Virus record (IMG/VR): IMGVR_UViG_3300032267_001204
Coordinates: 1 to 64,000 of that record
Direction: 5' to 3' (one strand)
DNA length: 64,000 bases
From: a virus
The translations under genes were made by a program, and so were the position numbers. The notes under the pieces were generated by a model. It had not been told where the DNA came from. It worked only from the letters and a program-made list of their open reading frames with translations, and did not search any database. Below, in pieces: positions 7,437 through 41,000 of this stretch. Position 1 is the first letter of the stretch. Every line of letters begins with the position of its first letter.

Positions 7437-8687
7437 ATGAGCAAATCCAGACTTATTGAGACAGCGACCGGCGTCCACGAACTCGAACTGAACGGCTCGC
7501 GGGTCAAAATCCGTGAGACCAAAAACGGCAACTACAAGTTTTTTCGGCTCGACTGGAAAGTCGGTAGCCGGGCCTTCCGCCGCGCTTTCTCCAGCTCCGA
7601 AAAAGCCATCGACGAAGCCGAGCGCATTGTACGGGATCTTGCCCGGGCCGAAGGGGAAAAAACAACCGTGCGTAGCGAGGATATCGTCTACTACCGCGAA
7701 TGCGCCCGAAAGCTTGGCGGCGTTCCCCTGCACGAAGCCGTCGAGTTCTACTGCAAGTTCCACCGCGTCGGCGCTCCCCGCAAGACAGTCGCCGAGATCT
7801 GCAAAGAAGTGGAGGCTGCCAGCCGAGCCCGCGAAGCCTCCAAGCGGCACATTGAAACAACAGTTCACCTCAACAAGATATGGACTTCTTGGGCGGGCGC
7901 AATGGCCCTGCCCGAAGTCACGTCTGCCTTCATCGAACGCAAGTTCATCGAGAGCGGGTACTCGGCCCACACGAAGCGAAACCTTCTGCGCGGCTATCGT
8001 GCGCTGGAACTATTCGCCATGCGGCAGAAATACCTGCCGCGTGAGTTTGAAAGCGTGGCCGAAAGCGTTGTTGTTCCGAAAACGCGCAACTCGACGCCAG
8101 CCGTGTTCTCACCGGAAGACCTGATGCGTCTCTTCATCGCAGCGGGTCCCCGTCATATCGCCTACATCGCCATGATGGCGTTCGCGGGCGCCCGCCGGGC
8201 CGAGTTTGAGCGCATGACCCGCGACCACGTTTCGTTGGAAGACAAAGTCGCCGTCATCGGGGCCGAGATCGCCAAAAAAGGGTCACGCCGCGTTTTGGAA
8301 CTGCCGGACAACCTCTGCGAGTGGCTCGCGATCGGGCTGCCTGAGAAAGGACCCCTGACCTCCCGCAAGAACATCGAGCGGCTGTCCTTGAACAAGTCGG
8401 CCCTCAAAGAGGTCGGGCTCGACGCCAAATGGGAGCAAAACGTGTTGCGCCACAGCTTTTGCTCCTACCATCTGGCCCTGCACCGCAACGCAGCCCTGAC
8501 CTCGGAGCAGGCCGGCAACTCGCCGCAGATGCTCCGTGAGCACTACAAATCTCTGGTGGCGCCAGCCGCCGCCAAGGAATGGTTCGAGATCACTCCCGAG
8601 AAGGTTAATCAATTCGCGGGTGCGAATAATCTTACCGGGTTAATAAAATGGTCTTGCCAAAAGAAAGGAGGGGTAACAATCTCGTAA
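7437..8687 (+). CDS. int: Tyrosine recombinase (integrase)
   Basis: A 416-residue site-specific recombinase. The N-terminal half holds an arm or core-binding SAM-like region. The catalytic half shows FAGARRAEFERMTRDHV (catalytic Arg), an AEIAKKGSRRVLELP beta-hairpin Lys, NVLRHSFCSYH (box II Arg) and AGNSPQMLREHYKSLV (Tyr nucleophile). Two normally His positions, before LRH and in the GH of box II, are Asn here, so only part of the usual R-H-R-H/W-Y set is conventional. I chose ATG 7437 because it follows the promoter-like motif at 7366-7395; an in-frame TTG at 7401 would add 12 residues. It implies lysogeny by integration, but no att site could be identified. Confidence 0.88.
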   Translation: MSKSRLIETATGVHELELNGSRVKIRETKNGNYKFFRLDWKVGSRAFRRAFSSSEKAIDEAERIVRDLARAEGEKTTVRSEDIVYYRECARKLGGVPLHEAVEFYCKFHRVGAPRKTVAEICKEVEAASRAREASKRHIETTVHLNKIWTSWAGAMALPEVTSAFIERKFIESGYSAHTKRNLLRGYRALELFAMRQKYLPREFESVAESVVVPKTRNSTPAVFSPEDLMRLFIAAGPRHIAYIAMMAFAGARRAEFERMTRDHVSLEDKVAVIGAEIAKKGSRRVLELPDNLCEWLAIGLPEKGPLTSRKNIERLSLNKSALKEVGLDAKWEQNVLRHSFCSYHLALHRNAALTSEQAGNSPQMLREHYKSLVAPAAAKEWFEITPEKVNQFAGANNLTGLIKWSCQKKGGVTIS

Positions 8688-13902: not shown

Positions 13903-14661
13903 ATGAGTAAAATATCGTTCGAAGACCTCGACAAGGCCCCGGCCGAGTCGAACACCGAAACCGCAGTCGTCGTGAAACCGGAGCTGGCCGTAGCCGTCCC
14001 GAGCATCGCCGAGCCAGCCAAGGGGTTGCTGGGTGAATGGACCGCGCAAGACACGCGCCTTCCCCGCCTCAACCTCGTCAACAAGAGCGGCGACCTCGCC
14101 AACACGTTCGTCCCGGGGACTTACGTGATAAATAAAGAGCATCAGCTCAGCCAACTCTCGGCAGACAGCCGCGAGCGGAGCAACCCGATCAACGTCATCG
14201 TCGCAACGATGGCGAAACAGTATCAGGAAAACATTCCGTTCGACGCGCGCGAGTCCACTCCGGCTCGCCGCTTCAACAAAGCCTCCGAAGTCATGGCGGC
14301 CGGCGGATCAGTCAGCCGCTTGAGCGGGGGCGGCAAGTTCTCCGAAATCGCGCACATCGAGCTGTTCGTCGAAGAACCGGAGGGGTTGACCGAAGACGCC
14401 CAGGCGCTCTTCTACTACACGTTCGGGGGCAAAAAATACACCCGCGTCATGTGGACTGTCAGCGGCACCGCTTTCGGCGCAGTCGCCGTCACGATCGCCA
14501 GTGCGCTGCGGGGACACTTGGCTTCGACTGGACTGACCGGAGGTCAATGGCTCCTCGGGTCGAACCTGATCAAAGGCCAAAATAGCTGGTGGCAGCCGAG
14601 CATCCGCACCAACGGCCTCGTGGCTCCAGAGGTCACCAAGGAAATCGAGGGCAACCTCTAA
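13903..14661 (+). CDS. Putative ssDNA-binding or recombination accessory protein
   Basis: 252 residues. No family motif is certain. The layout is an acidic or variable N-terminus, then TRLPRLNLVNKSGDLANTFV and YTFGGKKYTRVMWTVSGTAFG with aromatic residues suitable for a nucleic-acid-binding beta barrel, ending in an acidic tail. In phage polA modules the slot between the DUF2800/helicase genes and DNA polymerase is usually an SSB-like (for example DUF2815) protein, which is the main argument. It is preceded by an A/C-rich leader lacking a Shine-Dalgarno and followed by a strong 11-bp inverted repeat. Confidence 0.5.
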   Translation: MSKISFEDLDKAPAESNTETAVVVKPELAVAVPSIAEPAKGLLGEWTAQDTRLPRLNLVNKSGDLANTFVPGTYVINKEHQLSQLSADSRERSNPINVIVATMAKQYQENIPFDARESTPARRFNKASEVMAAGGSVSRLSGGGKFSEIAHIELFVEEPEGLTEDAQALFYYTFGGKKYTRVMWTVSGTAFGAVAVTIASALRGHLASTGLTGGQWLLGSNLIKGQNSWWQPSIRTNGLVAPEVTKEIEGNL

Positions 14662-22382: not shown

Positions 22383-22838
22383 ACAATGTCAGGTTAAACG
22401 GCCGGATGACTGCGACTGAGCAATCATTACTGGGGGATTCCTAGGTGTTCCCCCAGCGAAAAAAGACTCCATCCCCCACGTTAAGTTGCTTCGCGCCAGC
22501 GATTTAGGTCGATCTGGGGGACGAGGGGGAGGGATTCGGGGAATGCGGGTGGCGGAACGACGGGAGGGGGGCTACAGCCGTATATATAATATTTTTTGTT
22601 ATAGAGAAACACTGTAGGAATCCCCCTTTCCCCCAGATTTGTAGTATGTCTCTGTCGGACAGCGATTTAAGCCCTGTTTTTGACTGGGGGAAAGCCTGGG
22701 GGAAAGGGGGAAAGCCCCCCTAAAAGTGGGGTTAAACGCGAGTTTAGGGGGAAAGGCCTGCCGAAAACGCGGTTTTCGGGGGTTTCTGAGTTTAGCCCAC
22801 ATTCTGAGGGTCAGTATGTCGGGAATCCCGACAATCAA

Positions 22839-23370: not shown

Positions 23371-23913
23371 GGGTTAATATCCTTGCGTTTGCAAGTGTGT
23401 CAAACGGCTCCCCTGATTGTTGCGGTTATCAGCCGGTTAATAAATGCAAAATCCCGGGAAAAATTAATTTCCCATCAAATGATATGTAACTGCTGCGAAA
23501 TTGGTGGTCAGAGGGGACCGTGGTGGATCGGGTGGTGGGTCACAGATTCAGGATCCGTGCGCTTTCTACCGATCATCTCTGTATTGTGCCGCATTGTGAC
23601 GAGAACCATGAAGCATGGATATTGCTGCAAGCCTCTGTGCATCAATGACTTACGCAAAAAGGGGCAAATCAGCCTCTAACAGAGTAGCATCGGGCCAAAA
23701 AGCCCACCTCTACACAACATATAGGGGAAAATCCGGCCCTTTTGATTGATTCGCCCTGCTTTTCAGGGGGTTTCCCTCCTTTGGCCTCATAACCTGCCTA
23801 CCGATTAACAGAGTAAAACGCCGTGTCCCGTCCATTTATTCATGGATGAAAGCTCCATCGGAGCCGGAATCCACTCAAGTAGAAACAAAGAGCCATGCTC
23901 CAAGCATCGCTCA
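23371..23913. other. Non-coding stretch with no recognised feature
   Basis: About 540 bases between the tRNA-like gene and the first accessory gene. Short plus-strand frames here do not look like proteins. It includes a G-rich stretch near 23505-23540 and a copy of the linker motif CATAACCTGCCTACC near 23788. I see no second tRNA and no convincing promoter, though the promoter of the rightward accessory operon must lie here or further upstream. Confidence 0.4.
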
Positions 23914-23931
23914 ACTCAACATCCGTTGAGT
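23914..23931. repeat. ACTCAAC palindrome, copy 1
   Basis: ACTCAACATCCGTTGAGT: 7-bp arms ACTCAAC/GTTGAGT with a 4-base centre. It lies 19 bases before ATG 23951, at the head of the accessory operon, so it could be an operator. First of eight copies with variable centre and invariant arms. Confidence 0.85.
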
Positions 23932-23950
23932 CGTTAGCTCGTTAGACAAC

Positions 23951-24355
23951 ATGAAAACACACAAACTCGTTACCTCGTTCTGCAACGGAATCCTCCAAGG
24001 CGAAACGCTCCGCGAAACGCTCATCCAGCTTGCCGCTGAAATGGTCGAGACGATCGGCAAGCGTGACGCTGCGAAGCAAGTCCGCGCAGAGTTGAAAACC
24101 CCTCGCTTCATCAATGCCCTCGTCGGCGAAGGGAAGCGTTACAAGAACGAGCGGTCGTGGGAAGTCCGCGTCTCGTTCATCCTCTGCAACTACGGCCTGA
24201 AGGCCAAGTCGTCGGAGGGAAGCGGCAAGAAAGTTGCGCCGCGTCTCCGCTCCGAAGGTTCCAAGATCGCTGCCAAGCTGCTCGCTAACTTCGAGAAAGC
24301 TGAAGCGGTGAGCATCCTCCGCGTTGCCTTGGAAGAAGCCAAGGCCGCTGAATAA
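23951..24355 (+). CDS. Hypothetical helical protein (134 aa), first gene of accessory operon
   Basis: 134 residues, highly helical and basic: GETLRETLIQLAAEMVETIG, DAAKQVRAELKTPRFINALV, then YKNERSWEVRVSFILCNYGL and a C-terminal helix KAEAVSILRVALEEAKAAE. No catalytic motif. It sits between two ACTCAAC palindromes and is followed by a strong terminator, so it can be expressed as a single-gene unit. A structural or DNA-binding role is possible; unidentified. Confidence 0.65.
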   Translation: MKTHKLVTSFCNGILQGETLRETLIQLAAEMVETIGKRDAAKQVRAELKTPRFINALVGEGKRYKNERSWEVRVSFILCNYGLKAKSSEGSGKKVAPRLRSEGSKIAAKLLANFEKAEAVSILRVALEEAKAAE

Positions 24356-24372
24356 CTCAACATCTGTTGAGT
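24355..24372. repeat. ACTCAAC palindrome, copy 2
   Basis: ACTCAACATCTGTTGAGT starting within the stop codon (TAACTCAAC) of the gene at 23951. The extended arms ACTCAACA/TGTTGAGT pair over 8 bp. It lies just upstream of a terminator hairpin. Confidence 0.85.
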
Positions 24373-24383
24373 GAGAACAACAG

Positions 24384-24403
24384 CGCAGGGCTTCGGCCCT
24401 GCG
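24384..24403 (+). terminator. Intrinsic-terminator-like hairpin with TTCG loop
   Basis: Perfect 8-bp stem CGCAGGGC-TTCG-GCCCTGCG, extendable by ACAAC/GTTGT flanks, followed by TTGTATCTT. A stable UUCG tetraloop and moderately T-rich downstream sequence suit rho-independent termination after the first accessory gene. Confidence 0.7.
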
Positions 24404-24444
24404 TTGTATCTTGCTCAAAGCGGCAAGCGTGGCGCGATTCACGC

Positions 24445-24474
24445 ACCATGAACCATGAACCATGAACCATGACC
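24445..24474. repeat. Tandem ACCATGA units at a start codon
   Basis: Four consecutive ACCATGA(A) units ending in the ATG of the gene at 24469. Three extra ATGs precede the real start, one of which opens the tiny frame ATG-AAC-CAT-GAA-CCA-TGA. This could be slippage, or a way of loading ribosomes where no Shine-Dalgarno exists. Confidence 0.7.
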
Positions 24475-24675
24475 CTAAAACCACTACCCCGATTAACTGA
24501 TGCCGAGCTGAAGCGAGAAGCCGACGCGATTGTGCGTTACAACGAACACCGCAATCCCTTCTTTGGTAAAGTTTCGTTCGGCGAGTTTTGTCGTATCCCA
24601 TACATGACTCCCGCCGAGATTGCGGACGCCTCGCCGGAGTTGCAACACGCCGCCACGTTCTGGAGCGATCTATGA
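24469..24675 (+). CDS. Hypothetical protein (68 aa)
   Basis: 68 residues: LPRLTDAELKREADAIVRYN, then FFGKVSFGEFCRIPYMTPAE and IADASPELQHAATFW. No family recognised. It is ATGA-coupled to the following gene and preceded by tandem ACCATGAA repeats in place of a Shine-Dalgarno. Confidence 0.55.
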   Translation: MTLKPLPRLTDAELKREADAIVRYNEHRNPFFGKVSFGEFCRIPYMTPAEIADASPELQHAATFWSDL

Positions 24676-24899
24676 ACGCTAACACCCGAGCCAAGAAACT
24701 TGAGCGGCTATTTATCGCTGCCGCTTTCGAACCACGCACAAACAAGGAGTTCGATCACAAACCAGAGGCGTTGCGAACCGAGTTCTGGCAGCTTCATCGT
24801 CGTCTGCCGCACTCCGCCCCCGCGCTTTGGGAGCGGTTCAAGAAGCGCATGGAGCGCACGGGCCGTTTGTCCGAAGGCACATCGTGGAGATACGAGTAA
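24672..24899 (+). CDS. Hypothetical basic protein (75 aa)
   Basis: 75 residues from ATG 24672: ANTRAKKLERLFIAAAFEPR, PEALRTEFWQLHRRLPHSAP and ALWERFKKRMERTGRLSEG. Strongly basic and helical. It overlaps the previous stop by ATGA and is followed by the palindromes at 24936 and 24961. Unidentified. Confidence 0.55.
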   Translation: MNANTRAKKLERLFIAAAFEPRTNKEFDHKPEALRTEFWQLHRRLPHSAPALWERFKKRMERTGRLSEGTSWRYE

Positions 24900-24935
24900 T
24901 CACATCGGCGCATCCTTCGGGGTGCGTCGAGGTGT

Positions 24936-24957
24936 CGAATCAGAGTGTTCTGATTCG
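24936..24957. repeat. GAATCAGA palindrome, copy 1
   Basis: Nine-base arms CGAATCAGA and TCTGATTCG around GTGT. Directly followed by ACTCAAC palindrome copy 3. A second palindrome family, also found at 28763 and in shorter form at 30700. Confidence 0.8.
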
Positions 24958-24960
24958 CCG

Positions 24961-24978
24961 ACTCAACATTCGTTGAGT
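24961..24978. repeat. ACTCAAC palindrome, copy 3
   Basis: ACTCAACATTCGTTGAGT, three bases after the GAATCAGA palindrome and followed by the TGGCATGA inverted repeat at 24987-25031. Three different palindromes thus follow one another in about 100 bases. Confidence 0.85.
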
Positions 24979-24986
24979 GAACCCTC

Positions 24987-25031
24987 TGGCATGAGGGGCA
25001 ACAAACTCCCCGAAAGGCGAGCATCATGCCA
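24987..25031. repeat. TGGCATGA / TCATGCCA inverted repeat
   Basis: Perfect 8-bp arms at 24987-24994 and 25024-25031 with 29 bases between, ending 10 bases before ATG 25042. A related TGGTATGC/GCATACCA pair lies before the AAA+ gene at 30736, so the arm sequence changes while pairing is kept. Confidence 0.7.
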
Positions 25032-25041
25032 CACCACGAAC

Positions 25042-25233
25042 ATGGAAACAGGAATACTGCCCAAGAAAAAGCTGCCCCGCTTCCGCGAGGCGGCGAAAGA
25101 CGAGGGACGTCCCCTCGCCTTCGAGCCAACCCCCAAGGAACTCGAAGACGAAAGGTCGCGCTATCTGGCGGCCAACAACCGCAACTTCGGGACGAATCTG
25201 GCTTTCGTCATTGACTTCGTCCCGAAATCATAA
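25042..25233 (+). CDS. Hypothetical protein (63 aa)
   Basis: 63 residues from ATG 25042: METGILPKKKLPRFREAAKD, LAFEPTPKELEDERSRYLAA and NFGTNLAFVIDFVPKS. No family recognised. The longer in-frame extension upstream has no coding character and crosses three palindromes. It is followed by CATAACCTCATCACC and the next ATG without a Shine-Dalgarno. Confidence 0.5.
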   Translation: METGILPKKKLPRFREAAKDEGRPLAFEPTPKELEDERSRYLAANNRNFGTNLAFVIDFVPKS

Positions 25234-25243
25234 CCTCATCACC

Positions 25244-25456
25244 ATGAGCCATGAAACAAGGTTCCTTAACCCTGATCCACAGCCCCAGGCCGATCCGGCC
25301 GAGTGGCGTCCGAGTGCCGAACGCGAGTGGCGTCGCGAAGTCGGCGGCATCGAAGCCGAGTGCAAATGCCCTGATTGCGAACCCCGCAAGGCAAAGGGCG
25401 AATTCGGTTTCTACCATCCTGCAACAAATGAACGCGGAGGTCGATATGCGGAGTAA
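25244..25456 (+). CDS. Small CxxC protein (70 aa)
   Basis: 70 residues from ATG 25244: acidic and basic mix with WRPSAEREWRREVGGIEAEC then KCPDCEPRKAKGEFGFYHP. The C-K-C-P-D-C cluster may bind zinc. It overlaps the tiny membrane peptide gene by 11 bp. Confidence 0.55.
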   Translation: MSHETRFLNPDPQPQADPAEWRPSAEREWRREVGGIEAECKCPDCEPRKAKGEFGFYHPATNERGGRYAE

Positions 25457-25535
25457 CCACTACAAAACCAAGTGTCTGGAGAAGCTGGTCTTATTGTCCC
25501 TGCTCCTCCTCTGGATGCTGTTCGCTCTGCTGTAA
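25446..25535 (+). CDS. Tiny membrane peptide (29 aa)
   Basis: ATG 25446 preceded by GGAGGTCGAT. Basic head MRSNHYKTKCLEK then hydrophobic LVLLSLLLLWMLFALL to the C-terminus. It is a single transmembrane helix with Nin charge bias; the good Shine-Dalgarno inside the previous gene supports translation. Possible lysis or membrane-modulating peptide. Confidence 0.5.
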   Translation: MRSNHYKTKCLEKLVLLSLLLLWMLFALL

Positions 25536-25564
25536 TAACCACAACACCAAAAAAGTAGATAAGT

Positions 25565-25909
25565 ATGGCTAACTACAAAACCGAGTTCCCTGATTACGAC
25601 GACACCCTTCCAGAGTTGGGAGGATTCACCGACTCGTCGTGGCGCAACGATGCCTGTCCGAGCCTCTCGAAAGAGATCAGCGACGACCTGCATCCCAAGA
25701 CGATCACGATCTTTGTCGATTACAAAGACCGCGCATTGTCGGAATGCCCCGAGGTTTTCTTCAACGATCATGGCGACTACTACCGCTTTGTCATCGTCGA
25801 GTTCACCCCTTGGGCCGGAGAGAACGGGCAACGCGTGTTGCTGGCAACTAACGATTGGACAGAGGTCTCTGACTTCGCCGCCGATCTCAACTCAACGAAT
25901 GTTGAGTAA
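25565..25909 (+). CDS. Hypothetical acidic protein (114 aa)
   Basis: 114 residues, acidic: TEFPDYDDTLPELGGFTDSS, ITIFVDYKDRALSECPEVFF, DYYRFVIVEFTPWAGENGQR, LLATNDWTEVSDFAADL. Strand-rich centre. The last codons (NSTNVE) are themselves encoded by ACTCAAC palindrome copy 4, so the repeat is part of the reading frame here. No family recognised. Confidence 0.65.
   Translation: MANYKTEFPDYDDTLPELGGFTDSSWRNDACPSLSKEISDDLHPKTITIFVDYKDRALSECPEVFFNDHGDYYRFVIVEFTPWAGENGQRVLLATNDWTEVSDFAADLNSTNVE
25890..25907. repeat. ACTCAAC palindrome, copy 4 (inside coding sequence)
   Basis: ACTCAACGAATGTTGAGT at the very end of the gene at 25565, encoding its last residues and abutting its TAA. It shows that the palindrome is kept at a gene junction even when it has to be translated. 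Confidence 0.85.
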
Positions 25910-25928
25910 CCATAAATCCTATCACGCG

Positions 25929-26294
25929 ATGAAAACATATCCCAAACAACGACACATCTTCCCGAAACATCCTCACAAGAATCCGGAAGGTCCGATAACG
26001 GCATGGGTCTACAACGGCCTTCACGATCCGGAGGAGCCCTATGCCAACTACATCATCGAGGAGATCAGGTGGATCGAGCATCTTGACGAGCCAGCCTTCA
26101 TGCTCGTTCTGGAGAACTCCTCGTTCATCAAGCCTCGCCTCGAAGACCTTGAGCCGCTGCTGTTCAAGTGGCTCGAAGACGAAGGTGTGCGCCTCGTGCA
26201 TCTCAACGCCCAAGACGCGAGCGAAACCCCCCGACAAATGGCGTTCGCACCGCGCAAATGCCCAACCTGCTGCCAACCCATCCCTGAGGAGTGA
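25929..26294 (+). CDS. Hypothetical protein with C-terminal CPTC (121 aa)
   Basis: 121 residues from ATG 25929: KTYPKQRHIFPKHPHKNPEG, ANYIIEEIRWIEHLDEPAFM, RLEDLEPLLFKWLEDEGVRL and FAPRKCPTCCQPIP. The final C-P-T-C-C may be half of a zinc site. No family recognised. The stop lies inside the outer stem of the hairpin at 26289-26337. Confidence 0.6.
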   Translation: MKTYPKQRHIFPKHPHKNPEGPITAWVYNGLHDPEEPYANYIIEEIRWIEHLDEPAFMLVLENSSFIKPRLEDLEPLLFKWLEDEGVRLVHLNAQDASETPRQMAFAPRKCPTCCQPIPEE

Positions 26295-26337
26295 AACTCC
26301 GCACTCCCTGCCCCCACAGGGAGTGTCAGTCTCACTC
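26289..26337. repeat. Composite intergenic hairpin A
   Basis: Perfect inner stem CACTCCCTG (26302-26310) and CAGGGAGTG (26317-26325); outer arms GAGTGAAACT (26289-26298) and AGTCTCACTC (26328-26337) pair with one mismatch. The outer right arm overlaps ACTCAAC palindrome copy 5, so two alternative folds compete. The same design recurs at 26940-26990. Confidence 0.7.
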
Positions 26338-26351
26338 AACAGATGTTGAGT
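26334..26351. repeat. ACTCAAC palindrome, copy 5
   Basis: ACTCAACAGATGTTGAGT, followed by AGGGAAATAACC, a context identical to copy 6. It lies 34 bases before ATG 26386. Confidence 0.85.
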
Positions 26352-26385
26352 AGGGAAATAACCAAACAACCAACATGGAGGTAAC

Positions 26386-26925
26386 ATGAAAAGAAAAACC
26401 CTAACAATAGTCCCATCCGCCGTTGATCAGGCGATCAAGCCGAAGCCAAGCCGCGCCGAGATCATCGAGGCCGCCGTTCAGTTGCGGCTGGAGGAACTCC
26501 AGAAGGAAGCCGAGGTCGTCGCGAATCACAACCAACGTCTCAGTGACGCTGTCGTTGCGTTGATCCCCGCTGCTGTCGATGGCGTTTGCAAAAACGGAAC
26601 GCTTGCGAAATCACTAAAGGACAACGAGACGATCTACTACTACCGCAATTGGGCTGACGAAGATCATCTCTCCGTTACAATTAAGATCGAAAAAAGCGAC
26701 CTGACGTTGAAGTTGCAAGCCGCACTCGCCAACGAGCGCGACAACCGCAAAAACCCTCCGTATCTCAGCGTGGATCAAATCCGCCGAGAGGTGAAGCAAG
26801 GGCTGAAACCCTCGGCTGATCCGGCTGGCCGGGTCAAAGCGTTGCTTGCCGATAGCGACAGCCGCACCGCTTTGCAGAGCCTTCTCAAAGCGGTCTATCC
26901 GAAACCCGAAGCGGTTGAAGTATGA
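26386..26925 (+). CDS. Hypothetical helical protein (179 aa)
   Basis: 179 residues with strong Shine-Dalgarno ATGGAGGTAAC. The N-terminal helix RAEIIEAAVQLRLEELQKEA and VVANHNQRLSDAVVALIPAA suggest a coiled coil; then YYYRNWADEDHLSVTIKIEK, and a C-terminal basic region. No catalytic motif. It shares its leader type (hairpin, palindrome, AGGGAAATAACC, Shine-Dalgarno) with the next gene, so the two are probably co-regulated. Confidence 0.65.
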   Translation: MKRKTLTIVPSAVDQAIKPKPSRAEIIEAAVQLRLEELQKEAEVVANHNQRLSDAVVALIPAAVDGVCKNGTLAKSLKDNETIYYYRNWADEDHLSVTIKIEKSDLTLKLQAALANERDNRKNPPYLSVDQIRREVKQGLKPSADPAGRVKALLADSDSRTALQSLLKAVYPKPEAVEV

Positions 26926-26939
26926 GTGGTAAGCGAGAG

Positions 26940-26990
26940 GAGTGAGACTCCGCGCCCCTTCCAACTCTGGGAGGGGCGTCAGTCTCACTC
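26940..26990. repeat. Composite intergenic hairpin B
   Basis: Perfect outer stem GAGTGAGACT (26940-26949) and AGTCTCACTC (26981-26990); inner stem CGCCCCTTCC (26953-26962) and GGGAGGGGCG (26969-26978) with one G-U and loop AACTCT. The right arm overlaps ACTCAAC palindrome copy 6. Confidence 0.75.
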
Positions 26991-27004
26991 AACAGATGTT
27001 GAGT
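26987..27004. repeat. ACTCAAC palindrome, copy 6
   Basis: ACTCAACAGATGTTGAGT, identical to copy 5 and followed by the same AGGGAAATAACC. It lies 40 bases before ATG 27045. Confidence 0.85.
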
Positions 27005-27044
27005 AGGGAAATAACCGAAACACCTAACATGGAGATATAACACC

Positions 27045-27653
27045 ATGCCTATTGCAAAAGTAAATCTGTCGGCCCTCGGCACCAAGCCGAAGGGAAACAC
27101 GAAATCGTATCCTGTGCTTCCGCTCAGCGATGAGCTGAAGGGATTCGTCAGTGATTACCTGAAGAACACGCAGGATATCGAGACGCTGGAAGGTGCGAAC
27201 AAGCAGCTCCGCGCTTACCTCGAAGTCGAGGCGCGTCGCTACTACTACCAGCACCACAGCGGCAAGCTCGACGTCGAGTCTTCGCTCGAAGCTCCTTCGA
27301 GCAACGGCCAATCGTTGCTGCTCACCTGCCAGAACCGCTACAAGGCGTTGCCCGACGAGGCACCCATCGTAGCGGCCATCGGCGAGGAGCGCACCGAGCG
27401 GCTCTTCTACAACTCGGTCGATGTGAAGATCGACGGCGACAAGATTCCGGCGGACAAGATCAATGATCTGTTTGCGGAAGTGGCGGCGGTCTTTGCCAAG
27501 TTTGGCGCGACTGATGCCTTGTCGCACCGCTCTGTCATCAAGCCCACGCCGGAGTTCCACACCGCCCGGCACACGATCCTCTCGGTCGAGGAGAACCTCG
27601 CCGTCGATCAGGCCACGCCGTTCACGTTGGCATTCAAAACCAAGCGCCGCTGA
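27045..27653 (+). CDS. Hypothetical protein (202 aa) upstream of ligase-like gene
   Basis: 202 residues: KSYPVLPLSDELKGFVSDYL, IETLEGANKQLRAYLEVEAR, RLFYNSVDVKIDGDKIPADK, INDLFAEVAAVFAKFGATDA and C-terminal FHTARHTILSVEENLAVDQ. It has a helical N-terminal half and an alpha/beta C-terminal half. No family recognised. The stop overlaps the ligase-like start as TGATG, implying a functional link with that enzyme. Confidence 0.65.
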   Translation: MPIAKVNLSALGTKPKGNTKSYPVLPLSDELKGFVSDYLKNTQDIETLEGANKQLRAYLEVEARRYYYQHHSGKLDVESSLEAPSSNGQSLLLTCQNRYKALPDEAPIVAAIGEERTERLFYNSVDVKIDGDKIPADKINDLFAEVAAVFAKFGATDALSHRSVIKPTPEFHTARHTILSVEENLAVDQATPFTLAFKTKRR

Positions 27654-28270
27654 TGAACCCGCCAACCTTTCCTGCGCGGCCGATGAACGGCGGCCCGTTG
27701 GATCGGGCTAAGGAGAAGCCTGAACCCGAAGCATGGTTCTATGAACCCAAGATCAACGGCTGGCGTGTTCTCATCGACGTGAAGAACAAGAAGATGTGGA
27801 CGCGTTACAACCGACCATCATCGGTCGAGCATAAGTATGCGGCGGTTCTGGAACGAATCGCAGCGCAGTTCTCCGGCGACGAGGTAACGTGGCTCGACGG
27901 CGAGATCCTCGGGCAACGGGCCAGCTCTATCGGGCGCGGCTCGCTCGTCATCTTCGACGTGGCTTGGCCGCGTTGGAAGGATTGGTCTATACTCCACGAC
28001 CGGCGACGACTGCTCGACGTTATGTTCGATAACGTCAACGAAGTCTGGGACATCGACAGGCTGCCGAGTCAGGACACGATCTACCGGTTGCCCCGAATCT
28101 CCGGCGCCGACGCGCTGGAATACTACGAGCGGATGCAAATCGCCAACCAACGCTTCGGCCTTGAGTTATACGAAGGCGTTGTGGCGAAGAACATGCACAA
28201 AGAATACCCGACACAGCTTCGATCCGCTACGGAGGAGACTCCTTGGTGGGTCAAACATCGTTGGGACTAA
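27653..28270 (+). CDS. Minimal ATP-dependent DNA ligase / nucleotidyltransferase-like protein
   Basis: 205 residues with the adenylation-domain motifs of covalent nucleotidyltransferases: motif I YEPKINGWRVLI (about 29-40, Lys nucleophile, Asn replacing the usual Asp of KxDG), LDGEILG (about 81, motif III-like acidic), FDVAWPRW, motif IV LYEGVVAKN (about 172) and motif V-like WWVKHRW at the C-terminus. There is no OB-fold domain, so it is shorter than typical ATP ligases. It may seal nicks with help from another protein, or modify RNA or protein ends. TGATG-coupled to the 202-residue protein upstream. Confidence 0.75.
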   Translation: MNPPTFPARPMNGGPLDRAKEKPEPEAWFYEPKINGWRVLIDVKNKKMWTRYNRPSSVEHKYAAVLERIAAQFSGDEVTWLDGEILGQRASSIGRGSLVIFDVAWPRWKDWSILHDRRRLLDVMFDNVNEVWDIDRLPSQDTIYRLPRISGADALEYYERMQIANQRFGLELYEGVVAKNMHKEYPTQLRSATEETPWWVKHRWD

Positions 28271-28289
28271 CCACAAAGGAGGTGAACAA

Positions 28290-28751
28290 ATGAGAAAGAT
28301 GTCTATCGAATGTGCGATGGAAATCTGGAAGGCCGGCGGCGGCGTTGCCGCCAGCGAATGGCAGGAGAAGTCCGGCTATTCACGCGGCGGCCCGATCTAC
28401 AAGCGGCGAGCGACTCCCGTTTTCTGTCGGGAGTTGACTCGGGAGGGCCTCGAACTCGAAGCGATCAACCCGCACGAGGACATTGCTTCCTACTATCGGA
28501 GCATTCTTGCCTACGTCACTGGTCGTTATCCGAAAGCGCGCAAGGTCATCGTGGTCAACGACCCGGTCGGGCTGCGGACCGCGTGTATGGATGCGGAAAT
28601 CCCAGAGCCAAGGTTTGACGCCTTGATGGGCCAATGGGATCTCGGCAACACAGTAGCGAGCCAGCGCGTATGGCAGGCCCAGGCCAAGCCGCGCTATGCG
28701 TGGCAAGGCCTTGTGAAAAGGCTTGATCCGGCTCCGGCTCTGGGTTCATAA
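28290..28751 (+). CDS. Hypothetical protein (153 aa)
   Basis: 153 residues from ATG 28290 with perfect AAAGGAGGTG Shine-Dalgarno. IECAMEIWKAGGGVAASEWQ and SRGGPIYKRRATPVFCRELT, then ASYYRSILAYVTGRYPKARK, VIVVNDPVGLRTACMDAEIP. Alpha/beta protein with an Asp-Pro turn; no family recognised. It is followed by a GAATCAGA palindrome and a nested ACTCAAC hairpin before the vWA gene. Confidence 0.65.
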   Translation: MRKMSIECAMEIWKAGGGVAASEWQEKSGYSRGGPIYKRRATPVFCRELTREGLELEAINPHEDIASYYRSILAYVTGRYPKARKVIVVNDPVGLRTACMDAEIPEPRFDALMGQWDLGNTVASQRVWQAQAKPRYAWQGLVKRLDPAPALGS

Positions 28752-28762
28752 CCTGCCAACCG

Positions 28763-28782
28763 GAATCAGAACCTTCTGATTC
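28763..28782. repeat. GAATCAGA palindrome, copy 2
   Basis: GAATCAGA and TCTGATTC around ACCT. Same arms as the copy at 24936, again within 50 bases of an ACTCAAC palindrome. Confidence 0.8.
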
Positions 28783-28793
28783 TGGGAGGAACA

Positions 28794-28837
28794 CCATCCC
28801 TTCTCACTCAACAAATGTTGAGTCTGGGAGGGGATGG
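28794..28837. repeat. Nested hairpin enclosing ACTCAAC copy 7
   Basis: Arms CCATCCC (28794-28800) and GGGATGG (28831-28837) enclose the ACTCAAC palindrome, giving a two-level stem. Confidence 0.65.
28806..28823. repeat. ACTCAAC palindrome, copy 7
   Basis: ACTCAACAAATGTTGAGT inside a larger hairpin upstream of the vWA gene. Confidence 0.85.
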
Positions 28838-28898
28838 CATCCTCCCCGCAACATCAGTTGCGACGGAGATCATAACCTAACTACCAAAGGAGGTATAC

Positions 28899-30584
28899 AT
28901 GCCCATCAAATACTACACCCCCACGCTCGACAAAGCGGTGAAGGATCACCACATCGACTACCGAGTGCGGGGCCGACTGCCAGAAACTTACGACCTGCAA
29001 TGGGTCGATAAGCGTCATCCGTGCAAGACCGGCTGCTGGCGTTTCGACCACGCGTCGGGTCGCCACGAGATCCGTTTGTCCCAGATCTGCTACGACACCC
29101 TGACCAAGGGCGGAGCAGCACACGGCAAGCGGGTCGCCGTGCCTGACCTGTATCGCAACGTCTACGAACACGAGGCAGCGCACTCGCTCTACACGACCAA
29201 AGACCTCGAAGGTCTCGGCAAGATTCTTGCCGCCGAGAAAATCCCTTGGCGGCTGATGAACTTGTTCGAGGACTGCCGCATCGAGCGTAATTGGATCCTC
29301 CGCGAACGCGCTGGCAAGTCGTTTCGCTGGACTCGTTGGGAGGAGCATCCGCCCGCCTCCAAGATGAGCGCGAGCAGCTTGCTCTTCCACATGAAGACCG
29401 AAGGCTTGACCCGCAGCGGGTATCGCTTCCCTCGGTCGTTCATCATTGCCCATCGGGCACACCCCAACTGGCGGAAAGTCTACGACTATTACCGCAGCAT
29501 CGTCGGATGTGGAGGGACCGAAGACCTCGTGCCGATCCTCAAGGACTGGCTCAAGGACTTCCCCGCTACGGGTGACGACACCATCGAGGGTGAAGGCGGC
29601 GATGGAACCGGCGACATGGGCGAGGCGATCGGCGAGGCCACGGGGACGCGCCCCGAGGACGTCAAAGCGAAAGACCCCAAAGGCGAAGGCGCATCGCCGG
29701 AGACCAAGTCTGGAGACGGCGAGAGCGAGGGCAAGGGCAAAGGCGGCAAGGCCGGCACTCGTGCCGAGTCCACCACGTCACCGACCCACGGACGCGGCAG
29801 CGGCGGCTCCGCTTCCGAAGTCGTGCCGACCATCGACCACGAGGCTGAGCGTTCGCTCCGGCTGGCGCAACTGCTGGCCCAAGCGTTCCGCAAGAACGGC
29901 ATCATCGCCAAAGGGCCAACGGCCCGTCCGTCCAAGCGGCTCAACCTGCGCGGCTTGCTGCGCGGCGACTGGTCTCGTCCGTTCGTCGGCAAGACGATCG
30001 GCAACACGAACAAGCCGCACATCTCGTTCGTCATGGATTGCTCGGGCAGCATGAGTTGCCTGACTCACCTTGATCGTTCGCGCAAGGTTGAGCTTCGCAC
30101 CGATGACTGTGGTCGAATCCTTGCTCGTGCGTTGAACGAGCTGGCTCGCCTTGGTCACATCACCGGCATCGTCTACGGCTCATCGGATGGCGGCTGCCAT
30201 TCGCGCACCGAGCTGCCCGTCCCAAACCATGTGCTGACGATGGACGCTGGCCTCGAAGCCTTCTCCGGCTCCGAGGGTATCGGCCTCACGTTGGCGCCCG
30301 GCTGCAAGCCCGGCTGCTACCCGAAGAAAGGCTCCGGCTCGTTCTTCGAGGAGATCGCCGCCAAGTCCAAGATTGCCATCGTCTACACGGACGGCTGCAT
30401 CACGGACGCTCCGGTCAATCGTATGCCGCTCCGTGCGCGGGGCGTCTACACCATCGGCGCCTACGCCGGACCGGACAAGACCGCCGCACTACGCCACCAC
30501 TTCGATTACGTCATCAGCCGTGACTCGTTGTGGGGCGTAGCCGATGCGCTCGTCCGCACCCTGAAGTCCATCCCGCGCAAGTAA
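28899..30584 (+). CDS. CobT-like protein: putative zinc-peptidase-like region plus vWA domain
   Basis: 561 residues with Shine-Dalgarno AAAGGAGGTATAC. The N-terminal part has RNVYEHEAAHSLYTTKDLEG (HEAAH, about residue 90, the HExxH pattern) and NLFEDCRIERNWI, as in CobT/DUF2201-like proteins. A low-complexity acidic and Gly/Ser linker spans about 225-310. The C-terminal vWA domain has MIDAS SFVMDCSGSMS (about 379, DxSxS) and IVYTDGCITDAP. vWA proteins of this kind pair with MoxR/CobS-type AAA+ ATPases, and one follows directly at 30736. They probably form a metal-insertion-like or protein-remodelling complex. Cobalt chelation is unlikely, as no large CobN subunit is present. Confidence 0.82.
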   Translation: MPIKYYTPTLDKAVKDHHIDYRVRGRLPETYDLQWVDKRHPCKTGCWRFDHASGRHEIRLSQICYDTLTKGGAAHGKRVAVPDLYRNVYEHEAAHSLYTTKDLEGLGKILAAEKIPWRLMNLFEDCRIERNWILRERAGKSFRWTRWEEHPPASKMSASSLLFHMKTEGLTRSGYRFPRSFIIAHRAHPNWRKVYDYYRSIVGCGGTEDLVPILKDWLKDFPATGDDTIEGEGGDGTGDMGEAIGEATGTRPEDVKAKDPKGEGASPETKSGDGESEGKGKGGKAGTRAESTTSPTHGRGSGGSASEVVPTIDHEAERSLRLAQLLAQAFRKNGIIAKGPTARPSKRLNLRGLLRGDWSRPFVGKTIGNTNKPHISFVMDCSGSMSCLTHLDRSRKVELRTDDCGRILARALNELARLGHITGIVYGSSDGGCHSRTELPVPNHVLTMDAGLEAFSGSEGIGLTLAPGCKPGCYPKKGSGSFFEEIAAKSKIAIVYTDGCITDAPVNRMPLRARGVYTIGAYAGPDKTAALRHHFDYVISRDSLWGVADALVRTLKSIPRK

Positions 30585-30595
30585 CCCTGCCTCGG

Positions 30596-30639
30596 GAGAC
30601 ACACCTCCCCTTCCCGCTCTGGGAGGGGGAGTTAGTCTC
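30596..30639. repeat. Composite intergenic hairpin C
   Basis: Inner stem CTCCCCTTCCC (30605-30615) and GGGAGGGGGAG (30621-30631), loop GCTCT, one G-U; outer GAGAC/GTCTC (30596-30600, 30635-30639). Same design as hairpins A and B, directly before ACTCAAC copy 8. Confidence 0.7.
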
Positions 30640-30641
30640 TC

Positions 30642-30659
30642 ACTCAACCAATGTTGAGT
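30642..30659. repeat. ACTCAAC palindrome, copy 8
   Basis: ACTCAACCAATGTTGAGT between the vWA and AAA+ genes. Last copy found; none were seen in the structural or replication modules. Confidence 0.85.
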
Positions 30660-30683
30660 TCGGGAGTTAAACACAACCCCCTC

Positions 30684-30726
30684 TGGTATGCGGGGAACCG
30701 AATCATTCTGATTCCGTTGCATACCA
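30684..30726. repeat. TGGTATGC / GCATACCA repeat enclosing a GAATCA palindrome
   Basis: Perfect 8-bp arms at 30684-30691 and 30719-30726 enclose GAATCATTCTGATTC (30700-30714). It ends 10 bases before ATG 30736, the same distance as the related element before ATG 25042. Confidence 0.7.
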
Positions 30727-30735
30727 AACATTAGC

Positions 30736-32103
30736 ATGTCCGATAAACATACATCCAAATACACGCACGAGCTGATCGACTCTATGTCGTGGAAGATGCT
30801 GCGCGCTGCGGCGAAGGAGGAACTCGAAGCCCAAGGATTCAAAGGCTCGTGGTCGTCCGACTGCCAGACGCCTCGCCTCAAGGCGATGCTCAAGGGAGAG
30901 ATGACTGTCGCCGAAGCGGAGGCCGCTGTCCTCGCTGACAAGGCGAAGAAAGCTGGCATCTCGCTCGGCGGCGGCATCGACGCCACTGCGCTCAAGCCGC
31001 TCGAAGCCAAGCTCACCGAGCTGGCGGGTATCATCTCGTCGCTCGACGACGAGGTGACTACGGCCAAGTCCGAAGCGGCCAAGCTCGTCGGCGACTTGCA
31101 CACGGAAATGTCCGATCGACTCACCGAGTCGCACGAGGCCTTCACCAAGCTGCAAGATGCCGTCACCTCGGCCCTTGCCAGCGGCGGTTCGGCTGCGGCC
31201 AAGGTCATCGCTCCGATCCTCGGGGTGCCGACGCCTTCCTCGTCTGACCCCGCGGTCATGGCGCTGGAGCTGTTCTGCGCTCCAGGCCGTGCGATCAAGC
31301 CGCTGCTCGTCAAGGGCGGCCAAGGTGCGGGCAAGACCTACGCTGGGCGTCAGCACGGCATGACCGCCGGCTTTGACCGCTGCATCGAGTTCGGCGTCCA
31401 CTCCCAGACTGAGGCCGTGGACTTCCTTGGCATGATGATGCCGAGCGGCGAGTGGCTCGACGGCCCCCTGACCGAGGCGTTTCGCGCTGCGGCTCTGGGA
31501 CAGCTCGTCTTGCTCATCATCGACGAGATCTATCGCGGCCAGAACGGCGCTCGCACGCCGCTCCTCACGGCCACGTCTCCCGCCCGTCTGCCGAGCGGCG
31601 AGAAGGTCTACCGACTCCGCACGGGTCGCGCCATCATCGATCCGGTGACTGGCGTCCACACCTCCGAGATCATCGAGGCTCCTTGCCAGAACCTCGCCAT
31701 CGTTGCCACGACCAACGTCGGGGCCGAGTTCAACGTCGATCCGGGCTGCCCCGCCGAGCGCGAGCGGTTCATCCCTATTCACGTCGAGGTTGACGAGGTC
31801 AAGATCCGCGCTGTCTGCGGCGCCATCGCCACGGCCAAGGGCTTCAGCCCCTCCGTGGTTGACCGCACACTCGCCTTCTACCGCGAGTGCAACGTCCTCA
31901 AGACGGACGGGTTCATCGAACTCTGCCCGTCCACCCGCATCCTCTCCGAGGCGATCGAATACGCCGACAGCGAGGCCAACGTGAAGTCGATGCTGCGCTC
32001 GCTCGGCCTGCACATCTGGGTCGGCACCACCATCGAAGGCAAGCCCGAGGAAGAGCAAGTCAAGCGCGTCACCACCGCACTCGACAAGGCCTTCGGGAAA
32101 TAA
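30736..32103 (+). CDS. CobS/MoxR-like AAA+ ATPase
   Basis: 455 residues. Residues 1-150 are helical and charged (ELIDSMSWKMLRAAAKEELE, AVLADKAKKAG, a coiled-coil-like LAGIISSLDDEVTTAKSEAA). The AAA+ core has Walker A LVKGGQGAGKTYAGRQ (about 194), Walker B LVLLIIDEIYRGQNG (about 258), and ATTNVGAEFNVDPGCPAERE as sensor and arginine-finger region. CobS/MoxR ATPases work with a vWA partner, and that partner is the preceding gene. It presumably acts as a ring-shaped ATPase remodelling a target complex. The target and benefit to the phage are unknown. Confidence 0.85.
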   Translation: MSDKHTSKYTHELIDSMSWKMLRAAAKEELEAQGFKGSWSSDCQTPRLKAMLKGEMTVAEAEAAVLADKAKKAGISLGGGIDATALKPLEAKLTELAGIISSLDDEVTTAKSEAAKLVGDLHTEMSDRLTESHEAFTKLQDAVTSALASGGSAAAKVIAPILGVPTPSSSDPAVMALELFCAPGRAIKPLLVKGGQGAGKTYAGRQHGMTAGFDRCIEFGVHSQTEAVDFLGMMMPSGEWLDGPLTEAFRAAALGQLVLLIIDEIYRGQNGARTPLLTATSPARLPSGEKVYRLRTGRAIIDPVTGVHTSEIIEAPCQNLAIVATTNVGAEFNVDPGCPAERERFIPIHVEVDEVKIRAVCGAIATAKGFSPSVVDRTLAFYRECNVLKTDGFIELCPSTRILSEAIEYADSEANVKSMLRSLGLHIWVGTTIEGKPEEEQVKRVTTALDKAFGK

Positions 32104-37457: not shown

Positions 37458-38064
37458 GCCAGCACCAAGAAGGAAAGCGGTAACCCTCGCTGGCCTTCTC
37501 GGCCACGTCTTGGGGCAGCCACACCTTTGCCTTGAGGTTGCAACCGCAGACGCCGCAGTTGGCAAGGCTGGCGTTTCGGACTGTCTCTCGCGCTCCGATG
37601 ATCGAGTAGACAACTGAGGCCAGATTGGAGCACGCGTAGCATCCGGTCATTCCTACGTTCAAGGGGCACGCGGCGCAAGTGGCTGCCCGCCGGTCAGCCG
37701 TCTCCTGATCGACGAGACCCTTTCCTCCCAGAGCGGAAGCCGTCGCTTTCAGGAAGCGCATGACATCATCAAAGTTGAAATCCTTCTTCAGGCCAGTGTC
37801 GGAGTTTCGAATTTCGGCTGCTTCAAGTACTTCGGCGTCGGTCATTATCGGCGCACAAAGCCCTGGACCGGTCGCCGCGCAGGTGAAGTTGACGACGTCT
37901 TGCCGGGGTCGGCCCTCTGGGAGGCCGTTCGATTCCCGGTGCTCCCTCACTTGTCGGGCGACGTCATCGAGGATCGGCCCTCTGAACTTGCAGTCGGTTT
38001 CCGGCTGGAGGTAGCGCCAGTCGGCGGCAAGCGATTTGTCGAGCCATTCGTAGTCTCTGGTCAT
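37399..38064 (-). CDS. Cys-rich zinc-binding phage protein (221 aa)
   Basis: 221 residues. The central DRRAATCAACPLNVGMTGCY ACSNLASVVYSI and later NASLANCGVCGCNLKAKVWL carry CAAC, GCxxC and CGVCGC clusters, indicating one or two zinc sites. N-terminal part DYEWLDKSLAADWRYLQPET. Such CxxC proteins are common in phages downstream of the internal virion proteins; function unknown. ATGA overlap with the giant gene upstream makes it the last gene of the leftward late operon. Confidence 0.7.
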   Translation of the reverse strand: MTRDYEWLDKSLAADWRYLQPETDCKFRGPILDDVARQVREHRESNGLPEGRPRQDVVNFTCAATGPGLCAPIMTDAEVLEAAEIRNSDTGLKKDFNFDDVMRFLKATASALGGKGLVDQETADRRAATCAACPLNVGMTGCYACSNLASVVYSIIGARETVRNASLANCGVCGCNLKAKVWLPQDVAEKASEGYRFPSWCWLNTSDSSQQQPETPASQEG

Positions 38065-41000
38065 AAATCTCGCTCCTGTGCTTGCCCGGCGGCCTGTTGT
38101 GCCTCTCGCGCCCGCTCTGGAGCGGCGTTCTTGAGTGACTCTTTGCTTGGCTGGAAGGGCCGGTAAATGCCGGAGGCGATGTCTTCGAGGTCGTCTTTGC
38201 CAATGCCGGTGGCTCGAAGGCGACTAATCGCCGCCGGTTCGGGGAGCCCCAGGCGCCGGGCCGCCATGTATTGACGACGCGCTTCTTGCGTAAGACGGTA
38301 TTGGGCTTGGTCCGTCAGGTCGAAGGAGCCGGCCACGGCGCCAGGAGGCTGAGTACCCCGGGAGAGAAGAACGCGGTTAAAAAGAGAGGTGGCGTCGCGC
38401 TTGTTCCGGAGAAACTCTGAAGCACCGAAGCCTAAAGCTTGATCCAGATCCACTTGGCGGATGCGCGTTCCGGTTACGATGGCACCGATTTCTTGCGCCG
38501 CGCTAAACTGCTGCCCCGAATCGGAGACAATTCCGGCAACACCGAGGCTGCCTCGGTAAATTGTTTTTGCGGTGCCCGGCACGAACGCGCCAGCCAAGTG
38601 GGCGCCAACGGCTTGGGCAATATTCGTTCCAGAATCTTGCGGATTGTAGATCCGTCGGCCGCCAGCATCGACGTTGCGGAGGACGCTGGTCACCGCGCCG
38701 AAGACAATCTGTTCGCCGACGAACGGCTTCATCAATTCGCCGACCATCGCCACTCCGCCATCAGCAATGGCTTCCGGCATACTCTCAGCGCGACCAAAAG
38801 CGCGCATCATCGCGACGAAAGGTTTTTTGAAATATTCATGCCCGTCGAAAAACGAGATGTCGGCGTAGCTGATGGTATTCCCCGTGCGCCCAAACAAGAG
38901 TAGCTGGTTATTTTTCTGCCAGTCTGGAAGGAACTCACGGAGGTCTTCTTCGTCTTCGGGGGTCATTCCGGCCATCGCGGCAATTCCGCCAGCCGCGACA
39001 GCAGGCACGGTCATTGCCAAACCGAATCCTCCGATCCGCCGATAACCGAGGCTCCGCAGCTCTGGGTTGCCTGACTTAATTTCGCTGGCCGCCAACCTGA
39101 GCGTATTGATCGCTGTGCGAACAACTTCGGTGGTGAAAGTAATAAAGGGGGCGACGACTAAGCCAGGTCCCCGCTTGAGTTCCTGCACCCACTGCGGGGC
39201 TTCGGAGTAGGTCCAATAGATGTCCCGGGAGATCTCGGCAGCTTTCTCATCGAGTTCCGCTTCGGACATTTTCGGATATGCCCGGCGATAGTTTTCCCGC
39301 TCGGTGTAGAAAACAATGGCCCGCATAATATTGTCCGACATCGCGTAAGTCCCCTGGGCGAAGTCCCAGAGCTTACGGAACGGCTGCGTAATCTTGCGGG
39401 TTACTGCGTCTCCGGCTTGCACACGGGCGCCGCCCAGTTCGCGGTAGTCCTGCACGAGGTCGTCGATCATGTTGGCGGTCACCGATTCGCCGAACACGCG
39501 GAGGCGGATGAGCTTTTCGATTTCTTGCCGGGCTTTCTCGTACGCTTTGGGCCCAGAGCCGTAATTCTTGAACGCTTCTTGGATCGCTGTCTGGTGCGCC
39601 AGCCCGATGGCTTTGCCCGAAAACGATCCGGGCATCAACGCGCCGGTTGAAAGAAGTTTGAGGTATCCGGACAAGTAGTTGCGTGTTTGTGCGGCTGCCG
39701 AGCCGACAGTCGCCATCGCCATCGAGAGGCCCGTAGCTTTGGCAAAAAGCCGCGCCGCGTTTTCCGCGTCGCTCTGCGGATACATTTTGTAAAGGGCCTC
39801 GACGATGTCGCGGTTGCCCCAGACTCCGGCCAGCGGAGAGAGGCGGGCATTGGTCTCGTCCGAGATTTTGACGAATCCAGTCGGGGCTTCCCAATCGGCG
39901 AAAGCGTCCCGGAAAGCAGTCTCTGCGGCGTCTCGGTCGGTAGTGCGGAGTATCTCCTCAAAGTTTGCGCCGCGCACAACAAACTCGCCGGTATCTTCGT
40001 CCCGGCGCATTTCTGGCTGCGCCGAGAACCATCCTTCCGACAGGCCGAGTTCGCGCAGCTCGCGCAGGAATCGGTGGTTATAGATAAGCGTGGACATCTT
40101 GAGGATCGTCTTTCCGTAGGCCGTTTCCGGATTGTCGTAGACGCCCCAGAGCGCTTGAATTTCGGGAGCGATCGTCCCCCGGCTCATAAAGATCGACAGA
40201 TTTTTCTGCCCCATGACTCGTCCGGAAAGCGCTTCGAGCGTCGGGTCTTTCACGGACAACGCTGCTTCAAGGGCGGTTTCTACGTCGGCGGCGGCCACAG
40301 ATCGGGTGGCCTGGCGCTGGGCTTCGGCCTCAGAGATGGTTGTCCCAGATTTGGTAGCGGTGTTCAGGATACGTTCCTTAGCCTTCTCGATAAGCTGCTT
40401 CTTTAGAAAGCCACGGGCGCCGGCCATGACCTTCAGATTCTTCCTCACGCGGTCAGCCCATTTGGGGTTGTCAAAGATGGCGTAGCTTCGGTTGAGGTAG
40501 ATACCCAGCGTCTCGTCGATGGCGATTTCCAAGTCTCCGGAAACGAGCCCTTCGGATTTAAGCCGGCGCTGAAGCACGTTGATATGATCTCGCATCTGTG
40601 TCACGAGAACGCGCACATCCCGGGGAAGCGACTTCAAAGCCGCTGTCTGGCGCTCGCGGAACTTCATCCGATTCTCCCGCCGATAGCGGTCTTTCAGCTC
40701 GGCGGCTGCTTCGGGATCAGTAAGGCGAACTCGCGTCATCTCCGCCATCTGTGCTTCGGTGAAGGGGTTGTCTAGATTACCCAGAGCCGTGGTGATCTTG
40801 CGCGGGTCGATGTTGCGGTCACGAACAGCGCGGACGAGGAGCCGGATGTTGGCGTCGGCCCGGCTGGCTTCGGCTTTGATGCCAGCTCGCGAGCTTTGGA
40901 ACTTGTCGGTGCCGCGAGCGTCCATGAGGCGATCAACGGCAGAGATAAACTTGCCTTTGACGTAAGTGCCGCCGGTCGGGGTCTTGCTGACCTCGTCCCG

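Follow-up and report, generated by a model that had tools for sequence, protein, structure and literature searches.

Gene-junction palindromes that change together with a flanked small gene: a probable multi-operator repressor system in uncultured phages

The phiC31 repressor of Streptomyces phages controls its own synthesis and binds conserved inverted repeats (CIRs), palindromic operators that lie at many intergenic places. Lambda N is a small basic early protein, and boxB, present in few copies, is recognised in its RNA form and has a constant loop. The stoperators of the cluster A mycobacteriophages (L5, Bxb1 and TipsytheTRex) are operators present in many copies in short intergenic spaces; one operator lies near the repressor gene for autoregulation, the motif and the repressor diverge together, and the C-terminal part of the repressor also affects specificity (PMC6550527, PMC9283540). 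The PeSL cassettes of T4-type phages, as outlined in PMC4503421 (citing Arbiol 2010 and Comeau 2014), combine conserved stem-loops with an early promoter. The present analysis concerns the IMG/VR virus record IMGVR_UViG_3300032267_001204 (72,313 bases in full), of which the whole stretch analysed, positions 1 to 64,000, is called the window. Eight copies of the palindrome ACTCAAC-N4-GTTGAGT (family X) lie there within a single operon, on both sides of its small first gene and at junctions further downstream. Family X is probably the multi-operator set of an autoregulatory phage repressor encoded by that gene (23951-24355), the alleles of which swap together with the palindromes.

The best reading of the locus is a system comparable to the cluster A stoperators, albeit one with palindromic sites and an apparently unrelated protein family. 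As in cluster A, many near-identical sites occupy short intergenic spaces, and the operator motif and the putative repressor diverge together among relatives. The form of the sites is different: stoperators are 13-bp asymmetric, monomer-bound elements that number more than 20 genome-wide and lie mostly in one orientation, whereas the sites described here are 18-bp palindromes, of which 6-9 lie in the first 5-7 kb of the operon and three of the eight X copies are inverted. Homology to an L5-type repressor was not found through Pfam, PHROG or PDB matches, a search that did not include direct comparison with the TipsytheTRex repressor. The phiC31 repressor isoforms are much larger and the CIRs more widely spread, and no relationship in sequence was found, although the sequences were not compared directly. 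The locus resembles lambda N and boxB in that a gene for a small basic early protein changes together with short hairpin sequences; unlike boxB, the sites have variable loops and include inverted copies, and many of them have lost pairing. With the PeSL cassettes, as far as that source describes them, it shares conserved stem-loop elements at the junctions of swapped small genes; it differs in that a promoter was not recognised within the unit and in that the palindrome itself is exchanged together with one protein.

Palindromes at the junctions of one operon

An earlier note on this DNA had reported eight copies of X with invariant 7-bp arms and varying centres, none of them elsewhere and one translated at the end of a gene, all of which was borne out. 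The copies and the gene that they flank are given below, with relatives denoted by handle and position; Y is the palindrome family of two of these relatives.

23914..23931, X palindrome 1, centre ATCC, exact match, about 20 bases upstream of the small regulator gene; L121:1483 and L122:1641 have Y at the orthologous place
23951..24355, + strand, candidate cognate regulator gene (P0003, 134 amino acids), first gene of the operon, X on both sides
24355..24372, X palindrome 2, centre ATCT, starting at the final base of the regulator stop codon; L121:1902 and L122:2060 have Y at the orthologous place
24961..24978, X palindrome 3, centre ATTC, exact match
25890..25907, X palindrome 4, centre GAAT, exact match
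26334..26351, X palindrome 5, centre AGAT; orthologous junction with Y in L121:3586 and L122:3757
26987..27004, X palindrome 6, centre AGAT; Y instead in L121:4303 and L122:4450
28806..28823, X palindrome 7, centre AAAT; kept in L077, absent from L011
30642..30659, X palindrome 8, centre CAAT; kept in L011 and L077

A ninth copy was absent from the full virus record, and the translated copy, at 25890, overlaps the 3' end of an open reading frame (ORF) at 25565-25909. With up to three mismatches allowed, the pattern matched the window 10 times against an expectation of 1.94 (standard deviation 1.34), and none of the shuffled sequences reached 10; a chance origin was ruled out by this comparison together with the whole-record count. 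The centres are also directional, a detail that the earlier note had missed: they read ATNN in copies 1-3 and NNAT in copies 4-8, and 3 of the 8 copies are therefore inverted. An intrinsic-terminator scan called no terminator at any X copy, no T tract follows the copies, and Rfam covariance models gave no credible match near the X sites. When 2.9 million viral contigs were searched, 112 stretches carried the X pattern, of which only two were relatives with copies at orthologous junctions (two copies in L077 and one in L011). Most of the remaining matches look like single chance occurrences.

Relatives were collected by searching with the primase-like protein and P0001, and were recovered at 85-95%, about 57% and 43-50% identity. 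The DNA of G001 and G002 is about 85-96% identical over long stretches, and each carries eight copies of family Y, (G)AATCAGA-N4-TCTGATT(C), at most of the junctions that correspond to X junctions. The question raised earlier, whether arm complementarity is lost in close relatives, thus had an unforeseen answer: at most junctions the entire palindrome is swapped for another. At the junction at 26987 the exchange can be followed base by base: the preceding hairpin and the following ribosome-binding stretch are shared, and between them the window has X where both relatives have Y. The Y copy upstream of the regulator gene in G001 and G002 contains a G-T pair. Y, or a shortened Y, adjoins X at three window junctions and X adjoins Y at two junctions of the relatives, as expected of mosaic exchange. 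The window copies of Y are:

24936..24957, Y palindrome CGAATCAGA-GTGT-TCTGATTCG, next to X copy 3; orthologue of Y at L121:2347 and L122:2533
28763..28782, Y palindrome GAATCAGA-ACCT-TCTGATTC, beside X copy 7; Y also in L121:6086 and L122:6211
30700..30714, shortened Y palindrome GAATCA-TTC-TGATTC; full Y at L121:8010 and L122:8150

In each of G000, G001, G002, G005 and G013, the hairpin family with the most copies, counted with 6-base arms, was located in this operon and differed between lineages, being X (8 copies) in G000 and Y (8 copies) in G001 and G002. More distant relatives each have a palindrome family of their own, in 3-9 copies that all lie within the first 5-7 kb of the operon. 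Most genomes have 6-9 sites, nearly all at gene junctions, and wherever a record was examined in full, its family was restricted to this operon. The site lists were compiled with a two-mismatch rule, and several of the loci are fragments. The palindromes of these relatives are:

G005/G007, TTGTCCG-N5-CGGACAA, found again in L203
G013, GTTTAAG-AAAAC-CTTAAAC
G011, CTGTTA-N5-TAACAG
G019, TTGTTCG-N4-CGAACAA
L179/L191, AGTCGC-AAAC-GCGACT
L173/L176, TGTCCG-GAATTC-CGGACA
L185, AGTCCG-N4-CGGACT
L175, TTGTCG-GAATTC-CGACAA plus TTCACG-type sites
L180, TAGTCGGTYTACGGACTA

Concerted change of the small gene and its palindromes

The gene was compared at 13 loci, which represent 11 distinct types of palindrome; at each of them the conserved leader is followed first by a gene for a basic protein of 126-150 amino acids. 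In all 13 a copy of the local palindrome starts close to the end of the stop codon of this gene, from 2 nt ahead of it to 26 nt past it, and a palindrome also lies upstream of the gene in 11 of 13. In the Y-type genomes the P0003 gene is replaced by a very different relative, and tblastn detected no similarity between the window protein and that of G001. P0003 used as a single query likewise found zero relatives among the viral contigs, and a profile of the diverse family was needed. This profile recovered members outside its building set (L185, E 5e-36; L175, E 3e-22; L180, E 2e-5). All members align around (K/R)xx(V/I)SxLLxxYG, and the small proteins are one new, fast-evolving family. The structure modelled for the L179 member consists entirely of helices, among them a helix-turn-helix-like pair predicted at residues 61-84 (local predicted local distance difference test score, pLDDT, 83-91).

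The exchange of gene and palindromes could be followed directly between pairs of relatives. On either side of a swapped segment, 60-base steps of L136 and L138 are about 75-98% identical; within the segment the gene is unrelated at the DNA level and both flanking palindromes differ; the next downstream junction retains the old palindrome in both. The leaders of L191 and L173 are nearly identical until about 100 bases before the gene, after which the gene and the palindromes differ. Over the 13 loci, protein similarity correlated with palindrome similarity to a modest degree, uncorrected for shared descent (Mantel r 0.34; p 0.03 for the whole protein and 0.01 for the C-terminal part). The pairs that have the same palindrome, L130-L203 and L179-L191, are mutual best C-terminal matches, and L130 and L185 share the N-terminal part (0.81) without sharing the palindrome. 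These observations suggest that the C-terminal part may help to determine specificity.

Repressor, RNA hairpin and other explanations

Under the repressor model, there would be a single promoter and leader upstream of the operon, and the product of the first gene would accumulate and bind X, the 18-bp palindrome being occupied by a P0003 dimer with one ACTCAAC half-site per subunit. Copy 1, just before the gene, would limit the synthesis of P0003 (autoregulation), and copy 2, on the stop codon, with the strong hairpin after it, would stop transcription past the regulator gene. Copies 3-8 would repress or stall transcription across the following 6 kb, completing a ‘stoperator’-like silencer of the first 7 kb in total. 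Selection to escape the regulators of related phages would drive the fast, concerted switching, as in the cluster A mycobacteriophages, and the diversifying specificity would set superinfection immunity or regulatory specificity. Lysogeny is conceivable in this subgroup, since a tyrosine recombinase gene lies at 7401-8687; an early-gene shut-off during lytic growth is equally possible, because no such recombinase reached the threshold in the other records searched.

Several observations weigh against the repressor model. L173 and L175 have no recognisable palindrome before the gene, and L175 has two site types. Families are mixed within genomes (X and Y in the window, GTTTAAG and CTGTTA in G013), and recombination is therefore needed as an explanation. 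G000 also differs from G001/G002 by the exchange of other genes in the region, and the Mantel correlation is of the modest kind given above. The protein family matched no known DNA-binding family in Pfam, PHROGs or PDB sequences, Foldseek returned nothing significant with the model of either the L179 member or the window protein, and the latter model is itself weak (mean pLDDT 70). Some copies also lie within longer RNA-like hairpins (28794-28837; L136:16335; L138:6630).

The last of these points bears on a choice posed in the earlier note, between the operator of a dimeric regulator and a conserved RNA stem. A conserved RNA stem should have deviations that favour G-U pairs and double changes. 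The arm deviations, counted over 80 sites from 12 genomes, comprised 32 one-sided pairing breaks, 2 G-T wobbles and 2 double changes, and the inner five pairs had 12 breaks and no wobbles. In addition, the hybrid copies L179:11559 and L185:8427 retain half-sites, not complementarity. Since the copies preserve half-sites in preference to complementarity and are found in either orientation, the comparison favours a dimer reading half-sites on duplex DNA; the operator option is the better supported of the two and the RNA stem the less. The same counts, together with the variable loop letters and the three inverted X copies, make it unlikely that the sites are RNA hairpins bound by the small protein for antitermination, mRNA processing or translational control, with specificities that change together, even though all sites lie in one co-directional operon, 3' of its probable promoter and with stop codons or ribosome-binding sites close by, the small proteins are basic, and some copies are nested in longer hairpins (28794-28837 and, after the gene, in L136/L138). 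Slightly less probable again is a new class of small phage regulator that would recognise the short palindrome as a hairpin, in RNA or extruded DNA, at each junction; one early protein would then govern every segment of the early transcript, and protein and hairpin alleles would be exchanged as sets between co-infecting phages.

Explanations that dispense with transcriptional regulation were also weighed. Short mobile palindromes, similar to repetitive extragenic palindromes (REPs) or miniature inverted-repeat transposable elements and perhaps moved by the flanked gene, would account for the many copies in noncoding junctions, for an X copy in the loop of a hairpin that L011 has without X, and for copies on both sides of a small gene, as REPs lie around RAYT genes. 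This is improbable, as the same junctions show replacement instead of presence or absence, the centres drift while the arms are kept, and the sites are confined to one 5-7-kb segment; the flanked gene has no Pfam match, and an HUH-type motif was not visible in the small proteins when their sequences were inspected by eye. Palindromes that serve as homology for swapping small early genes, in the manner of the PeSL cassettes, would fit the mosaic region and the exchange of the genes between palindromes among relatives. Such boundaries would require the same palindrome in donor and recipient, yet what changes at these junctions is the palindrome itself; within the unit, no promoter was recognised, the co-change of one protein family with the palindrome is left unexplained, and we regard this as a little more doubtful still. 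The least probable explanation is that the small protein binds the sites as an array for partition, replication or DNA packing. Six to nine palindromes around a small, predicted DNA-binding gene do resemble centromere-like arrays, but a ParA-type ATPase was not found in 11 records, the sites follow gene junctions and not phase or spacing, and the tyrosine recombinase suggests integration in some members.

Elsewhere in the window, two palindromes at 7.3 kb had been linked to X, and ribbon-helix-helix (RHH) proteins had been put forward as its binders; neither proposal held. The palindrome GTAAGTC-ACTC-GACTTAC (7321-7338), in the divergent region upstream of the tyrosine recombinase gene, differs from X in sequence and is likely to be a separate operator, because it is conserved in both Y-type relatives, G001 and G002. 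The palindrome at 7357 has three mismatches to X, within the chance level. A regulator should differ where its operator differs; G001 and G002, which use Y, have the RHH proteins encoded at 8725 and 9114 at 93-98% identity, and these proteins therefore cannot explain the palindrome switch. P0003 and its family remain the probable cognates of the palindromes.

Junction hairpins, neighbouring features and significance

Further hairpins accompany the palindromes at the junctions of the operon:

24384..24403, + strand, strong hairpin CGCAGGGC-TTCG-GCCCTGCG, downstream of palindrome 2
26302..26325, + strand, GC-rich hairpin (Z-type), upstream of X copy 5
26952..26978, + strand, GC-rich hairpin (Z-type), upstream of X copy 6; same hairpin in L077 and L011
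28794..28837, + strand, GC-rich hairpin CCATCCC/GGGATGG, X copy 7 inside its loop
30604..30630, + strand, GC-rich hairpin (Z-type), upstream of X copy 8

The first of these is a possible terminator of a regulator-only transcript, and most relatives have other strong hairpins after the second palindrome. The stem at the 28.8-kb junction is CCATCCC/GGGATGG in the window and CTGCTCCC/GGGAGCAG in L011, which lacks X there. That the stem letters differ between relatives yet stay complementary suggests that this GC-rich junction hairpin is a real RNA structure. The hairpins after the gene similarly read CCGCC/GGCGG and CTGCC/GGCAG in L136 and L138. A second, RNA-level layer of junction hairpins is thus likely, since GC-rich hairpins with copies in their loops show compensatory change, and each of the two ideas of the earlier note may hold in part, for different elements. 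The GC-rich hairpins at 26302-26325, 26952-26978, 28794-28837 and 30604-30630 of the window, together with L011 6100-6165, make up this second class of junction element, of the CCCTTCC..GGGAGGG type.

Several lineages share a conserved, G-rich leader element (GTGGTGGgttGGGTGGTGGG) that lies behind an AT-rich promoter-like stretch at the operon head; no Rfam match to it was found. Its sites are:

23480-23560, window
14160-14240, L130
10300-10380, L181
5840-5900, L138

At 22622-22710, near the contig ends of two relatives, lies an inverted repeat (CCCCCTTTCCCCCAG..CTGGGGGAAAGGGG), each arm of which is about 15 bases long. The only Rfam hit was to the 3' untranslated region stem-loop family MAT2A_A, fell on this repeat and was sub-threshold, and the idea that the contig breaks near 22.3-22.7 kb mark a phage terminus was unsupported by other genomes. 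An unusually large single ORF of 3907 amino acids occupies 38061-49784 on the - strand. Its size and the 72-kb record had suggested N4-like hairpin promoters for a virion polymerase, an idea that was dropped because the replication genes are PolA, a DUF5906 primase, DUF2800 and a cytosine methylase (the giant ORF itself was not searched). Adjacent genes at 28899-32103 of the window encode a 561-amino acid protein with an HExxH-like motif (EHEAAHS) and a 455-amino acid protein that weakly matches a PHROG with the annotation porphyrin biosynthesis, a pair reminiscent of VWA/MoxR-ATPase pairs. A search of host genomes with the primase found one relative, L197, on a 53-kb scaffold in a Verrucomicrobia metagenome-assembled genome and without the small gene, which is a weak hint of a Verrucomicrobia host.

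If the repressor model is correct, these uncultured 66-74-kb phages would encode an unrecognised repressor family, the full operator set of which could be read from sequence. The 11 natural protein/operator pairs, some of them near-isogenic swaps, would provide material for studying how specificity changes, and the palindromes would offer a way of predicting which of these phages exclude each other. Multi-operator silencing with concerted switching is well described mainly in actinobacterial phages; an unrelated version elsewhere would mean that the strategy arose more than once.

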